A stretch of 64,000 nucleotides of DNA from Shinella sp. H4-D48 (GTDB lineage Bacteria; Pseudomonadota; Alphaproteobacteria; Rhizobiales; Rhizobiaceae). Of the stretch, positions 32,069 through 53,155 are shown piece after piece. Location of the stretch: positions 1,968,001 through 2,032,000 of the forward strand of contig NZ_CP093337.1 in the NCBI RefSeq assembly GCF_022637395.1, given 5' to 3'. The position numbers and the translations under genes are program-made. The notes beneath the pieces are model-generated. The model searched no databases. It was given only the letters and a program-made list of their open reading frames with translations, and was not told where the DNA came from. How positions within the stretch are numbered: position 1 is the first letter of the stretch; the number at the start of each line of letters is the position of its first letter.

Positions 32069-32146
32069 TTTTCACCCCAAGACTTGAGACAGCGGCCCGG
32101 CTCTGCAATGGTCTGGTCGCAAGAGAATCCGCATAGGGAGACGACT

Positions 32147-33273
<1,127 letters not shown>

Positions 33274-33274
<1 letters not shown>

Positions 33275-33747
33275 TGACGGCAGCCGCCTACCTGGTCGAT
33301 GTGCGGAGAATGGAAGCATTCTCCGCGGTCGAGCTTTATGCCCTGCTGAAACTGCGCGTCGATGTCTTCGTCGTCGAGCAGGCCTGCGCCTATCCGGAAC
33401 TGGATGGCAAGGATGCCGATGCGCTGCATCTGCGCCTGATCATCGATGGTGAGACCGCAGCCTATGCGCGGTTGTGGAAGCCGGAAAACGGCGGCCCGCG
33501 CATCGGGCGTGTCATCGTGGCACCGGCACATCGCGGCAGCGGCCTCGGCGGGGCGCTGATGCGCGCCGCGATAGAGGCCTGCGAAGCGCATTTCCCCGGT
33601 CAACCGATCTCGCTTTCGGCGCAGAGCCATCTCGAACCCTTCTATCGGTCCCTTGGCTTTATCCCGACTTCGGCGGAATATGTCGAAGATGGCATTCCCC
33701 ATCTCGATATGGCGCGGCCGGCCGAAAGCCAGGCACAGGCGAACTGA
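33274..33747 (+). CDS. GNAT-family N-acetyltransferase, ElaA-like
   Basis: 157 aa. The ElaA pattern is clear: LYALLKLRVDVFVVEQACAYPELDGKD at the N-terminus (described by parts), IGRVIVAPAHRGSGLGGALM as the acetyl-CoA-binding motif A, and LEPFYRSLGF as motif B. The substrate is unknown. It is translationally coupled to frmA by a one-base overlap, so it shares that transcript, but a direct role in formaldehyde handling is not implied. Confidence 0.85.
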
Positions 33748-33760
33748 AAAGACCGATCGC

Positions 33761-34234
33761 ATGAACGAAGACCAGCCCACCATCTTTGTCGATGCGGATG
33801 CCTGCCCGGTAAAGCCGGAGGTCCTCAAGGTTGCCGAGCGGCACGGCCTGCCGGTGACGTTCGTCGCCAATTCGGGGCTGCGTCCATCGCGTGACCCGAT
33901 GATCCGCAACGTCATCGTCTCCGGCGCCTTCGATGCGGCCGACAACTGGATCGTCGAGAACGTGCGCGAAGGCGACATCGTCATCACCGCGGATGTGCCA
34001 CTTGCCGGCAGAACCGTCGCCAAGGGGGCGCATGTGACCGGTCCGACCGGGCGACTGTTCGACCAGACCAATATCGGCATGGCCAGCGCGATGCGCGATC
34101 TCGGTGCACATCTGCGCGAGACCGGCGAAAGCAAGGGCTACAATGCCGCCTTCTCGCCGCGCGACCGTTCCGCCTTCCTGGAAACCCTGGACCGGCTTTG
34201 CCGCCGGGCGAAGAACGCGCGGGCAGGATCATGA
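33761..34234 (+). CDS. UPF0178 / DUF188 family protein (YaiI-like)
   Basis: 157 aa. The N-terminal IFVDADACPVKPEVLKVAER and the later IVITADVPLAGRTVAKGA are the conserved aspartate-rich blocks of YaiI/YqxD proteins, which have a PIN-like fold with predicted metal-binding acidic residues. No biochemical role is established. It follows the ElaA-like gene by 13 bases and overlaps the next gene by 4 bases (ATGA). Confidence 0.88.
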   Translation: MNEDQPTIFVDADACPVKPEVLKVAERHGLPVTFVANSGLRPSRDPMIRNVIVSGAFDAADNWIVENVREGDIVITADVPLAGRTVAKGAHVTGPTGRLFDQTNIGMASAMRDLGAHLRETGESKGYNAAFSPRDRSAFLETLDRLCRRAKNARAGS

Positions 34235-34887
34235 CGGCAGCACCGGCACGCAAGATCTACGGTCGGCACCTGCCTTTCTATGCAGGCATCGCCGCAGCCG
34301 TCTTATGCGGCGTGCCGGCGATCTTGATGAAACCGGATTTCGCAATCGATATTGCCGTCGTGGTGTTCTTCTCCTGCTACCTGGGAATGACGATCATTCG
34401 CCTGCCCTATCTGACGGCGGGCTATCTCGAACATCATGCCACCGACGCCGACGAACCGGTGTGGATCATCTTCACGGTCACCTTCGCGACCGCCGCCGTG
34501 TCCATAGGCTCGCTGTTCGTCGTGCTCAATCGCAAGGGGGCCTCGGGCATCGAACTCGCCCTCGCCTTCGCCTCGGTCGCGCTGGGCTGGTTTACCATCC
34601 ACACCATGGCGGCACTGCATTACGCCCATGTCTACTGGCGGCCATCGAACACGGAGACGGGACGCGGCGCAGGCCGCAGCCTTTCCTTCCCCGGCGACAC
34701 AAAGCCGGGCGCGTTCGACTTCCTGTATTTCGCCTTCGTGATCGGCATGACGGCGCAGACATCTGACGTCGCGATCACCTCGACGGCGATGCGCAAGGTC
34801 AACCTGCTGCACGCCATCGCATCCTTCTTCTTCAACACGGTGCTGGTCGCAGCCGCGGTGAACGCGGCCGTGTCGCTCGCCACCTGA
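34231..34887 (+). CDS. DUF1345 membrane protein
   Basis: 218 aa with about five membrane helices, including LPFYAGIAAAVLCGVPAIL and TFATAAVSIGSLFVVLN. The conserved DUF1345 stretch reads FTIHTMAALHYAHVYW, followed by FLYFAFVIGMTAQTSDVAIT. Function is unknown. The ATG overlaps the stop of the UPF0178 gene, and fghA follows 16 bases later, so it is embedded in the formaldehyde operon. Confidence 0.85.
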   Translation: MTAAPARKIYGRHLPFYAGIAAAVLCGVPAILMKPDFAIDIAVVVFFSCYLGMTIIRLPYLTAGYLEHHATDADEPVWIIFTVTFATAAVSIGSLFVVLNRKGASGIELALAFASVALGWFTIHTMAALHYAHVYWRPSNTETGRGAGRSLSFPGDTKPGAFDFLYFAFVIGMTAQTSDVAITSTAMRKVNLLHAIASFFFNTVLVAAAVNAAVSLAT

Positions 34888-34903
34888 CATCAGGAGCTTC
34901 CCA

Positions 34904-35737
34904 ATGAAAGTGCTATCCCAGAACACCGCCTTCGGCGGCATGCAGGGCGTGTTCGCCCACGATTCCGAGGCCTGCAAGGCCGAGATGACCTTCGCCGTCT
35001 TCGTGCCGCCGCAGGCCATAAAGGAGCCGCGCCCGGTGCTGTGGTATCTGTCCGGCCTCACCTGCACCCATGCCAATGTCATGGAAAAAGGCGAATACCG
35101 CCGCATGGCAGCGGAGCTCGGCCTGATCGTCGTCTGCCCCGATACCAGCCCGCGCGGCAATGACGTGCCGGACGAAATCACCAACTGGCAGATGGGCAAG
35201 GGCGCCGGCTTCTATCTCGACGCCACCGAGGCGCCGTGGGCGGAAAACTACCAGATGTACAGCTATGTGACGGAAGAACTGCCGAATTTCCTCAGCCAGC
35301 ATTTCCGCATGGACATGGATCGCCAGGGCATCTTCGGTCATTCCATGGGCGGGCACGGCGCCATGACCATCGCGCTGAAGCATCCCGACCGGTTCAAGAG
35401 CTGCTCGGCCTTCGCGCCGATCGTCGAACCGTCGACCGCCGACTGGTCCGCGCCCGCTTTCGAAAAATATCTCGGTGCCGACAAGGCGGCATGGCGCCAA
35501 TACGATGCTTGTGCCTTGGTGGCAGATGGCGCGCGTTTCCCGGAGTTCCTTATCGACCAGGGCAAGGCGGATGGCTTCCTCGACAACGGCCTGCGTCCCT
35601 GGCTGTTCGAAGAGGCGATCAAGGATACGGACATCAAGCTCACGCTGCGCATGCATGAGCGCTACGACCACTCCTATTACTTCATCTCGACCTTCATGGA
35701 CGACCATCTGAAGTGGCACGCCGAACGCCTCGGCTGA
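34904..35737 (+). CDS. fghA: S-formylglutathione hydrolase
   Basis: 277 aa alpha/beta hydrolase. The nucleophile elbow is GHSMGG (Ser147); the LSGLTCTHANVM block near residue 49 and the C-terminal YDHSYYFISTF (catalytic His) are typical of esterase D/FghA. It hydrolyses S-formylglutathione to formate and glutathione, completing the pathway begun by FrmA. It is probably the last gene of the frmA operon, followed by a GC-rich hairpin. Confidence 0.95.
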   Translation: MKVLSQNTAFGGMQGVFAHDSEACKAEMTFAVFVPPQAIKEPRPVLWYLSGLTCTHANVMEKGEYRRMAAELGLIVVCPDTSPRGNDVPDEITNWQMGKGAGFYLDATEAPWAENYQMYSYVTEELPNFLSQHFRMDMDRQGIFGHSMGGHGAMTIALKHPDRFKSCSAFAPIVEPSTADWSAPAFEKYLGADKAAWRQYDACALVADGARFPEFLIDQGKADGFLDNGLRPWLFEEAIKDTDIKLTLRMHERYDHSYYFISTFMDDHLKWHAERLG

Positions 35738-35757
35738 CACGACGATTTCCCATGGCG

Positions 35758-35783
35758 GGGGCGCATGGCTGACATGCCGCCCC
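35758..35783 (+). terminator. probable terminator hairpin after fghA
   Basis: Arms 35758-35767 (GGGGCGCATG) and 35773-35783 (CATGCCGCCCC, one bulged C) with a 5-base loop. The following TGCTCTT is only a weak U-tract. It would separate the frmA operon from gdx. Confidence 0.5.
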
Positions 35784-35788
35784 TGCTC

Positions 35789-35817
35789 TTGCGATCGGCC
35801 TCACGATGCGCAATATT
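35789..35817 (+). promoter_or_regulatory. putative gdx promoter
   Basis: TTGCGA (35789-35794), 17-base spacer, AATATT (35812-35817). The predicted start near 35823-35824 coincides with the first base of riboswitch hairpin P1, which supports the assignment. Confidence 0.45.
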
Positions 35818-35823
35818 TCTTCA

Positions 35824-35895
35824 CGGTAGACGGCTACCGCCGGGACATCCGGTCACGATCGCGGGGACGGCCTCGCTCCTTTCAAACGGAGTAGG
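35824..35895 (+). promoter_or_regulatory. guanidine-II riboswitch (mini-ykkC motif)
   Basis: Two hairpins, each with an ACGG tetraloop (consensus ACGR), precede gdx. P1 is CGGTAG-ACGG-CTACCG (35824-35839), all six pairs canonical. P2 is GCGGGG-ACGG-CCTCGC (35861-35876), six pairs with one G-U. The linker is 21 bases. The ribosome-binding site GGAG (35888-35891) can pair with CTCC (35876-35879), which abuts and shares the last base of P2. This fits translational control in which guanidine-bound P1/P2 releases the ribosome-binding site. Architecture, loop sequence and the downstream guanidine exporter all match the known class. Confidence 0.88.
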
Positions 35896-35899
35896 CAAA

Positions 35900-36214
35900 A
35901 TGCCCTGGATTCTTCTTACCCTTGCAGGTCTCTTCGAAATCGGCTGGGCTGTCGGTCTCAAATATACCGATGGTTTCACAAAGCTCGTGCCGACCGTCCT
36001 CACCGCCGGTTCCATGCTGGTCAGCATTGTGCTTCTCGGCCTTGCCGTGAAGACGCTGCCCATGGGCACGGCCTATGCGATCTGGACCGGAATCGGCACC
36101 GTCGGCACCGTCATTCTCGGTATCGTCCTTTTCGCAGAGCCGGTCACGGCCATGCGGATAGGCTGTATCACCCTGATCGTCACGGGCATTCTCGGCCTGA
36201 AGTTCGTCGCGTAG
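35900..36214 (+). CDS. gdx: guanidinium exporter, SMR family (Gdx/SugE)
   Basis: 104 aa with four membrane helices. Glu13 in LAGLFEIGWAVGLKYTDGF is the proton/substrate carboxylate of SMR proteins, and WTGIGTVGTVILGI is the conserved helix 3 segment. The sequence is of the SugE/Gdx branch, which exports guanidinium in exchange for protons, rather than the broad multidrug Qac branch. The start at 35900 is placed by GGAG 8 bases upstream; longer in-frame starts fall within the riboswitch and are rejected. Control by the upstream guanidine-II riboswitch supports the function. Confidence 0.93.
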   Translation: MPWILLTLAGLFEIGWAVGLKYTDGFTKLVPTVLTAGSMLVSIVLLGLAVKTLPMGTAYAIWTGIGTVGTVILGIVLFAEPVTAMRIGCITLIVTGILGLKFVA

Positions 36215-36286
36215 ACATAACTGGTACGGCCGGGGGCAAGAGCTCCCGGCAACGCCTCCAGATGGAAACCCACGACATCCGTTGTT

Positions 36287-37819
36287 TTACAGCGGAATGT
36301 TGTCGTGCTTCTTCCAGGGATTTTCCAGATCCTTGTTGCGCAGCAGGCGCAGCGCGCGGGCAATGCGCTTGCGCGTCGAATGCGGCATGATCACCTCGTC
36401 GATATAGCCGCGCTCAGCCGCCACGAAGGGCGACAGGAACCGGTCCTCGTACATCTTCGTGTGCTCGGCGATCTTTTCGGGATTGTCGATATCCTTGCGG
36501 AAGATGATCTCGACCGCGCCCTTGGCACCCATCACGGCGATCTGCGCCGTCGGCCAGGCATAGTTGATATCGCCGCGAAGGTGTTTCGAGGCCATGACGT
36601 CATAGGCACCGCCATAGGCCTTGCGGGTGATGAGCGTGACCTTCGGCACCGTTGCCTCGGCAAAGGCGAAGAGCAGCTTGGCGCCGTGCTTGATGAGGCC
36701 GCCATATTCCTGCGCCGTGCCCGGCAGGAAGCCCGGAACATCGACGAAAGTCACGACGGGAATGTTGAAACAGTCGCAGAATCGCACGAAACGCGCGGCC
36801 TTGCGACTGGCATCCGAATCGAGAACACCCGCCAGCACCATAGGCTGGTTGGCGACGAAGCCGACCGATGTGCCCTCGATACGGCCGAAGCCGCAGACGA
36901 TGTTCCGGGCAAAGCTTTCCTGTATCTCGAAGAAATCGCCTTCGTCGACGGTCTTGAGGATCAGCTCCTTGATGTCATAGGGCTTGTTGGCGTTCGCCGG
37001 CACCAGCGTATCGAGCGAGGCATCGACCGCCTCCACGGACTGGAAGCATTCGATCTCCGGCACGGGCGAAGTATTCGACTGCGGCAGGAAATCCACGAGG
37101 CGGCGAACCTGAAGAAGCGCGTCGACATCGTTGTCGTAGGCACCGTCGGCAATCGAGGATTTCGTGGTGTGAACGGAGGCGCCGCCGAGTTCCTCGGCAG
37201 TCACGGTCTCGTTCGTCACGGTCTTCACCACATCCGGCCCCGTCACGAACATGTAGGACGTGTCGCGGACCATGAAGATGAAATCGGTCATAGCAGGGGA
37301 ATAGACGTCGCCGCCCGCGCATGGCCCCATGATGACGGAAATCTGCGGAATGACGCCCGAGGCCAGCACGTTGCGCTGGAAAACCTCGGCATAGCCGCCA
37401 AGTGCCGCGACACCCTCCTGGATACGGGCACCGCCGGCATCGTAAAGCCCGATGATGGGTGCCCTGTTCTTGAGCGCCATGTCCTGGACCTTCATGATCT
37501 TCTGGGCATGGGTCTCGGAAAGCGAACCGCCGAAGACCGTGAAATCCTTGGCGAAGACGAAGACGGTGCGGCCATTGACGGTGCCCCAGCCGGTGACGAC
37601 GCCATCGCCGGCGATTTTCGTCTTCTCCATGCCGAAATCCGTGGAGCGGTGTTCGACGAACATGTCGAACTCCTCGAACGAGCCCTCGTCGAGGAAAACA
37701 TCGATGCGCTCGCGCGCCGTCAGCTTGCCGCGCTTGTGTTGCGCATCGATGCGCGCCTGTCCGCCGCCCATGCGGGCGCGCTCGCGCCGGACTTCGAGCT
37801 CGTGGAGAATTTCCTTCAT
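36287..37819 (-). CDS. pccB: propionyl-CoA carboxylase, carboxyltransferase beta subunit
   Basis: 510 aa, the usual PccB length. The crotonase-like carboxyltransferase blocks are [20 protein letters not shown], the oxyanion [29 protein letters not shown] and [19 protein letters not shown]. It pairs with PccA (encoded at 28530). The ATG at 37819 has GAGGG upstream. Propionyl-CoA from odd-chain fat and branched amino-acid breakdown would be its substrate. It converges with gdx, 72 bases away. Confidence 0.9.
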
Positions 37820-52615: not shown

Positions 52616-52984
52616 TTACTTCTTCTTGCCTGCGATGGCCTTGGCCGGGCCCTTGCGGGTACGGGCGTTCGTGTGCGTGCGCTGACCGCGAACCGGAAGG
52701 CTGCGGCGGTGACGCAGGCCACGGTAGCAACCGAGGTCCATGAGACGCTTGATATTCATCGAGGTTTCGCGACGCAGGTCACCTTCGACCTGATAGTCAC
52801 GATCGATTGCTTCACGGATCTGCAGGACTTCTGCGTCCGTCAGCTGGTGAACGCGACGATCAGCCGGGATACCGACCTTCTCGATGATTTCCTTTGCAAA
52901 CTTCGGGCCGATCCCGTGGATATAGGTCAGCGCGATGACTACGCGCTTTGCAGTCGGGATGTTGACGCCAGCGATACGTGCCAC
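52616..52984 (-). CDS. rpsM: ribosomal protein S13
   Basis: 122 aa. [20 protein letters not shown] starts the protein; [20 protein letters not shown] near the C-terminus is the rRNA/tRNA-contacting tail. S13 sits at the 30S head and contacts P-site tRNA. Preceded by its own promoter (53156-53184), as in the alpha operon of other bacteria. The rpsD gene usually found here in enterics is absent. Confidence 0.98.
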
Positions 52985-53155
52985 GCCTGTTCTCCTTGCT
53001 TCCAGTTGCCATCCGGCAAGTGGTCTTCTTCATTTGAAACGGCTTCGAAAGCCGCAACGCTCAATCGATGTTCGGTACGCACCAAAAGGACCGCACCCGG
53101 ACTTCTCATCTGGAAATCCGCGCCGATCGCAATGGCATGTCGCGAGTTGGCGCTG

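Follow-up and report, generated by a model that had tools for sequence, protein, structure and literature searches.

The question raised by this locus is whether the short leader in front of gdx in Shinella sp. H4-D48 is a guanidine-II (mini-ykkC) riboswitch and, if so, by what means it would control the gene. The window, i.e. the whole stretch of DNA analysed, is 64,000 nt long. An earlier note had described two ACGG hairpins separated by a 21-nt spacer, a Shine-Dalgarno (SD) sequence and a complementary CTCC at 35876–35879, and on direct reading all of these coordinates were exact. The features are as follows.

35824–35839, plus strand: hairpin P1, CGGTAG-ACGG-CTACCG, 6 bp, ACGG loop, AG/CU closing pairs.
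35861–35876, plus strand: hairpin P2, GCGGGG-ACGG-CCTCGC, 6 bp including one G-U, ACGG loop.
35888–35891, plus strand: Shine-Dalgarno sequence GGAG, 8 nt before the ATG.
35900–36214 (stop included), plus strand: gdx (sugE), ATG at 35900, a 104-aa SMR guanidinium exporter.

The loop-closing G-C pairs are intact at 35829–35834 in P1 and 35866–35871 in P2; the G-C pair under each loop has been reported as the floor of the pocket (PMC5486947). The protein belongs to the Gdx (SugE) subtype of SMR exporters at the curated cut-off, scoring 98.8 bits against PF00893 and passing the NCBIfam SugE equivalog NF008512 narrowly (127.7 bits against a cut-off of 126). Its PDB sequence matches at E up to 1e-10 were two, 6wk5 (E 7.3e-34) and 8vxu, both of the SMR family. 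The start of gdx was taken as 35900 and not as 35765, the start of the mechanical reading frame; that frame (35765–36214, 149 aa) begins at an in-frame ATG upstream of the promoter and spans the whole switch. A carboxyltransferase gene faces gdx, and fghA lies upstream. The genes at 32084–35737, upstream of gdx, encode a zinc-type alcohol dehydrogenase, a DUF1345 protein and an S-formylglutathione hydrolase, a set that looks like a formaldehyde detoxification neighbourhood.

The leader was compared with those of other gdx genes. The best 80 of 548 confirmed matches in named genomes, the best 70 rows of a family search and the genus itself gave 169 gdx loci and 160 distinct leaders, among them that of the window and one from a distant SMR paralogue; related leaders are counted many times over in every tally. 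Cores were scored as two RGACGRCY sequences (the loop and two closing pairs) at plausible spacing within the 140 nt upstream of the start. Two cores were found in 135 leaders, one in 6 and none in 19, against 0.12 leaders of 160 expected to have two by chance (mononucleotide shuffles). A hairpin rule demanding at least 4 bp per hairpin gave two in 123, one in 16 and none in 21. Among the 135 leaders, P1 pairs 3–6 were formed in 132, 129, 124 and 94 and P2 pairs 3–6 in 131, 133, 95 and 117. All eight counts exceeded the maximum reached in 200 column shuffles, that of P2 pair 3 narrowly (131 vs 129). P1 showed many pair types, with all six standard ones at pair 3. Pair 7 of P1 or P2 did not rise above the 200 column shuffles in these leaders.

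These counts bear on a reading in which the hairpins have no regulatory role or form an intergenic terminator or processing site of fghA, which does end close upstream at 35737. An fghA-like gene was present upstream in at least 41 of the 160 loci (40 loci had only 300-odd bases of flank) and two cores were present in 135, so the element goes with gdx and not with fghA. The covariation in P1, P2 and a linker hairpin described below also speaks against this reading, which is extremely improbable.

The Rfam model, which the earlier note had proposed as a check, gave a divided answer. RF01068 (guanidine-II) did match the site, at 18.6 bits and in a 221-base scan only, short of its gathering score of 32, which is a detection threshold and not a structural feature. 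At the gathering threshold, tRNA alone was found in the whole window and the guanidine-II site was not; a permissive scan of the whole window also did not list it. That permissive scan gave a sub-threshold Alpha_RBS match on the minus strand at 52952–53026 (28.6 of 38 bits); its matching part resembles the beginning of a ribosomal protein gene, presumably a coding similarity. In the whole genome the site was only the best of six weak Rfam matches (E 0.44, the second being 0.48), and Rfam alone would therefore not decide. A new covariance model was made from 28 leaders outside the genus, out of 32 candidate rows; four leaders titled Mesorhizobium were left out since their P1 and linker differ. 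With this model the window site scored 49.1 bits (E 7.3e-8) and the next place 16.5 bits.

The same difficulty with Rfam was seen in relatives. With 124 candidates scored per genome, none of the 21 genus gdx leaders was listed over the cut-off, 7 being listed at 17.6–22.5 bits and 14 not at all at E up to 1. Given that these leaders miss the cut-off and yet the model from outside the genus gives 49.1 bits, it is apparently the Rfam model that is the limit and not the site. Twenty loci were also scanned with Rfam, 15 of them of what we call the AG type, in which P1 is closed by AG-ACGR-CU. One AG-type locus (L035) reached the cut-off and 14 were not listed at E up to 1, against 4 of the 5 non-AG loci reaching the cut-off.

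Two ACGR-loop hairpins, their closing G-C pairs and a position before the exporter gene gdx place the site in the guanidine-II class. Its 21-nt linker also agrees with the class, in which the great majority of linkers are reported to be 13 nt or more (PMC5486947), with the qualification that it is partly folded and leaves a free tether of 8 nt. The assignment in the earlier note is thus borne out by the 135 two-core leaders of 160, the covariation, the 49.1-bit model and the Gdx family matches. As judged by sequence comparison, the site is a lineage variant, a Rhizobiaceae subtype, of the guanidine-II riboswitch, and we infer that it binds its ligand and switches. The class is a known one; what is new here is a testable lineage-specific structure, and the guanidine-II switches in one branch of the Rhizobiaceae are mostly passed over by the Rfam model.

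The AG type makes up 55 of the 135 two-core leaders, 21 of them from the genus. It has three further features in common, namely a linker hairpin, an anti-SD sequence in and after the 3′ arm of P2, and being mostly missed by Rfam. The linker hairpin (PL), like the palindrome and the full extent of the anti-P2/SD hairpin below, had not been part of the earlier note.

35840–35852, plus strand: PL, a hairpin in the linker immediately following P1, CCGGG-ACA-TCCGG, with G-U as its last pair.
35853–35860, plus strand: PL–P2 tether, 8 nt, the optimum of the anchored test.

When PL was anchored 8 nt before P2 in the AG-type leaders, 214 of 250 cells were paired (86%), as against 20–57% at nine other offsets; outside the genus the figures were 109 of 145 (75%) and 29–53%. 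Over the full AG set each of the five pairs exceeded all 500 shuffles, and C-G, G-C, G-U, A-U and U-A alternatives were observed. Outside the genus pairs 1–4 exceeded all 500 shuffles, pairs 2 and 4 narrowly, and pair 5 did not. A linker stem of at least 5 bp was found in 46 of the 55 AG-type leaders (16.6 in shuffles). A PL-like hairpin was absent from the 80 non-AG leaders, with such a stem in 9 against 7.4 in shuffles. The probable role of PL is to shorten the tether and so bring P1 and P2 together. A nucleotide extends about 6 Å, and the 8-nt tether left by PL could just span 49 Å. This is the distance reported for the 14-nt linker in Gloeobacter (PMC5486947). The smallest guanidine switch can, it appears, hold a third conserved hairpin setting the tether between the kissing loops.

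The third hairpin could also be taken as a sign of a guanidine-II-like RNA with a shifted ligand preference, for methylguanidine or agmatine for instance, as could the second pair of P1, which is A-U (AG-ACGG-CU) and is G-C in the Rfam consensus; other guanidino compounds have been reported to fit the pocket (PMC5486947). However, both hairpins retain the reported pocket residues (loop ACG-R and closing G-C), the gene encodes a Gdx, and we regard such a shift as very unlikely.

The earlier note had also placed a promoter at 35789–35817 and had predicted from it a transcript starting at or next to P1. Its boxes read as follows.

35789–35794, plus strand: −35 element TTGCGA, TTG invariant in a 16-sequence alignment, phased to P1 in relatives.
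35812–35817, plus strand: −10 element AATATT, 17-nt spacer, ends 12 nt before the P1 loop.

An E. coli-like matrix was used to score promoters in the 100 nt around the P1 start. In 115 of the 123 two-hairpin leaders (13.3 in dinucleotide shuffles) the best promoter had a −10 element ending 9–16 nt before the P1 loop, the distance being exactly 12 nt in 58; these counts are not independent because the species are related. This phasing supports the predicted start. Since the −10 element of the window ends 12 nt before the P1 loop, the predicted +1 is 35824, the first base of P1. From the phasing in relatives, this base or a neighbouring one is the probable start of the message, and the 76-nt leader would then be almost only switch. 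The same phasing was found in 37 of 40 leaders before the second atpB gene discussed below (4.3 in mononucleotide shuffles). Among 30 leaders found by Rfam across the phylum it was weaker, with 10 at a distance of 9–16 nt against 3.1 in shuffles. A generic promoter scan of 35700–36320 using stricter consensus rules gave no promoter, and the promoter call rests on comparison. In Magnetospirillum gryphiswaldense a mapped start is tabulated 7 nt upstream of the Rfam-predicted guanidine-II element (PMC9549626 Table 1). With the positions of promoter and aptamer locked together, transcription start would be tied to RNA folding.

The pairing of the SD with CTCC in the earlier note is present but incomplete, being only the core of a longer hairpin.

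35870–35896, plus strand: anti-P2/SD-sequestering hairpin, GCCU.GCUCC with GGAGUAGGC; minimum-energy fold.

This hairpin has 9 bp and one bulge. In the minimum-energy fold P1 and PL are kept, P2 is dissolved and the SD is buried by the GCCU.GCUCC–GGAGUAGGC pairing. The 3′ arm of P2 (35871–35876) lies inside the SD hairpin, making the two folds mutually exclusive. Forcing P1 and P2 to form cost 3.4 kcal/mol in the leader alone and 6.6–7.5 kcal/mol with some coding sequence. The stretch after P2 could form an anti-SD stem of at least 5 bp in 49 of the 55 AG-type leaders against 16.4 in shuffles; in 78 non-AG leaders it was not above shuffles as an SD partner (21 vs 19.7). The linker could pair with the SD over at least 4 bp in 69 of these 78 (47.3 in shuffles). 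In the AG type it could do so in 43 of 55 (28.6 in shuffles) but over at least 5 bp in 15, hardly above shuffles (12.5); a minor linker anti-SD may exist there as well. Enforcing P1 and P2 raised the predicted SD exposure in the window from 0.00 to 0.24 only, and over the 123 leaders from a mean of 0.244 to 0.300, with a rise of more than 0.2 in 36 and a fall of more than 0.2 in 9; neither kissing nor ligand enters into these folds. As the computed accessibility gave no clean ON prediction, the conservation of the complementarity was relied upon instead.

We infer the following course of events from these parts. Without ligand, P2 would be unfolded, and the SD would be hidden by pairing of the SD region with the 3′ arm of P2 and the three bases that follow it (35870–35896). 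Guanidinium would bind the two ACGG loops and stabilise the P1–P2 kissing pair, as has been reported for loop kissing in other species (PMC5486947; PMC7544219), and this stabilisation would have to pay the folding cost of P1 and P2. P2 would then keep its 3′ arm and the SD hairpin would be reduced to a weak 3-bp remnant, so that ribosomes could start. The explanation as a whole, a Rhizobiaceae subtype of guanidine-II whose message starts at or next to P1 and which switches on gdx translation, is in our judgement very probably correct. A different emphasis would have the aptamer act mainly on RNA decay or transcription, e.g. on Rho access, and on translation only as a consequence. The leader probably begins at P1, where folding close to the 5′ end could influence decay, the computed SD release is incomplete, and a class III guanidine riboswitch has been reported to work partly via RNase E protection (PMC9094411, PMC12186494). 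However, a strict scan found no intrinsic terminator-like site in 35700–36320, and the SD lies inside the alternative hairpin, its complement being kept in those 49 of 55 AG-type leaders. Action mainly on decay or transcription is improbable.

Control of gdx may not be by RNA alone. A palindrome lies upstream of the promoter.

35763–35777, no strand assigned: palindrome GCATGGCTGACATGC, centred on 35770 (about −54), with 6 of 7 pairs formed around a central base.

A match to GCATGGCNGCCATGC of at least 10 of 14 letters, centred 18–20 nt upstream of the −35 element, was present in all 21 genus leaders, on a consensus drawn from the same leaders it was scored on. Among 94 other leaders 22 had a match at −18 or −19, and the other 88 offsets held 14 matches. 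A palindrome scan blind to the letters was made on 115 leaders with a promoter assigned inside the phased window. At 6 or more of 7 pairs it peaked at centres −19 (19 loci) and −18 (6), with at most 4 at other odd offsets and at most 3 at even ones; the genus contributes much of this peak, for with the genus removed and at least 5 of 7 pairs, there were 10 at −19 and 7 at −18, but also 7 at −12, and 6 at −30 and −57. The fghA stop lies 19–148 nt from the −35 element in palindrome-bearing loci and the palindrome centre constantly 18–20 nt from it. This fixed distance to the promoter, when that to the upstream gene is not fixed, suggests from sequence that the palindrome is the site of a bound factor, a candidate operator.

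A terminator of fghA was considered for the palindrome and rejected. No T tract follows it, its distance to fghA varies while that to −35 is fixed, and it is present also where another gene lies upstream (L105, L114, L109). Allowing up to two mismatches the pattern occurred 155 times in the genome against 27 for a reversed control; when one mismatch at most was allowed, 18 of the 24 sites were in coding-like frames. A 16-letter form occurred 25 times in 18 of the 21 genus genomes, 15 times at gdx. No regulon could be defined from the genome-wide pattern matches, and no regulator gene was seen beside gdx on inspection of eight loci by eye. Only 4 of 40 leaders of the second atpB reached 10 of 14 letters and none reached 11, and the palindrome thus looks specific to gdx. 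Double control of gdx in this lineage, by a transcription factor at 35763–35777 (some 54 bp ahead of the start) and by the three-hairpin guanidine-II switch, is put forward tentatively, the chances being a little below even. The phased palindrome makes protein sensors of guanidine a testable question. Riboswitches are given in a 2025 review as the only known guanidine receptors besides transporters and enzymes (PMC12186494). A factor at the palindrome would, were it to sense guanidinium, be the first protein known to regulate the guanidinium response.

Guanidine-II elements over the Rfam cut-off also stand before other genes, the three loci read in the genus and family search scoring 34.9, 36.4 and 40.5 bits. 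One such gene is a second atpB, which encodes an orphan second F0 subunit a (AtpB2): of 28 genomes examined, 15 had two atpB genes and 13 had one. In 13 of the two-copy genomes an Rfam match over the cut-off preceded the second atpB, and none over the cut-off was found in the 13 single-atpB genomes. In the remaining two, the match upstream of the second atpB was 25.0 bits (G071) or absent (G199). The motif RLFA(V/N)M in 72 distinct atpB genes had Val in 41 and Asn in 30 and was absent from one. Two hairpins by the hairpin rule were upstream of 37 of the 41 Val-type genes and of none of the 30 Asn-type genes, and the core-only rule, used for Val-type genes only, gave 40 of 41. Examples are L230 2976–3018 (G075:C12) and L232 326–368 (G154:C5). 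With midpoint rooting the Val-type genes group as a single clade (support 0.77), marked by 12 diagnostic columns. Two of these flank the essential Arg: L is replaced by H at the third residue ahead of it and N by V at the fourth residue beyond it. We take this Arg and this N to be Arg210 and Asn214 of E. coli, Arg being essential in F0 subunit a. Some of the loci being short, at least 6 of the 41 Val-type genes have an SMR gene 27–146 nt downstream on the same strand. The genome of the window has one atpB, of the Asn type.

The link of a second subunit a to guanidine-II hints that the proton channel of ATP synthase may be exposed to guanidine stress. Our hypothesis is that guanidinium, as a mimic of the arginine side chain, might disturb the F0 half-channel and that AtpB2 might be a guanidine-induced substitute subunit a. 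A literature search covering work other than the founding mini-ykkC and guanidine-II papers found no link between a guanidine riboswitch and ATP synthase in the sections consulted (PMC12342949, PMC9971707); ATP synthase is tied there to Na+-I riboswitches (PMC9971707). In the AtpB2 leaders the P2 loop lies 26–31 nt before the start codon in 9 and 104–248 nt in most others (compare L230, L232 and L233 with L259, L275 and L282). By eye, short reading frames are present in the long leaders, as is a TCTC...GAGA hairpin downstream of P2. Separately, the 34.9-bit guanidine-II element at L231 472–516 (G205:C11:44271–44315) ends 17 nt upstream of a gene for a Na_Ca_ex (ChaA-like) cation exchanger, and at this one locus the exchanger is possibly a further type of guanidinium exporter.

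The window switch can finally be set beside known systems. It shares with RF01068 a pair of short GC-rich hairpins, each with a G-C-closed ACGR loop, beside the ribosome site of an SMR exporter gene; it differs in its score of 18.6 bits, the AG/CU closing pairs of P1, the extra linker hairpin and the 8-nt tether. In Gloeobacter violaceus a stem-loop over P2 and the ribosome site has likewise been proposed to exclude the folded switch (PMC5486947), but the 14-nt linker there is reported to be well extended and a linker hairpin is not described in the Introduction or Discussion of that paper. Escherichia coli gdx shares with the window the gene, the two-loop aptamer and a translational ON model as reported (PMC9094411, PMC13064478), whereas its putative anti-SD is placed in the linker and that of the window lies in and after the 3′ arm of P2.
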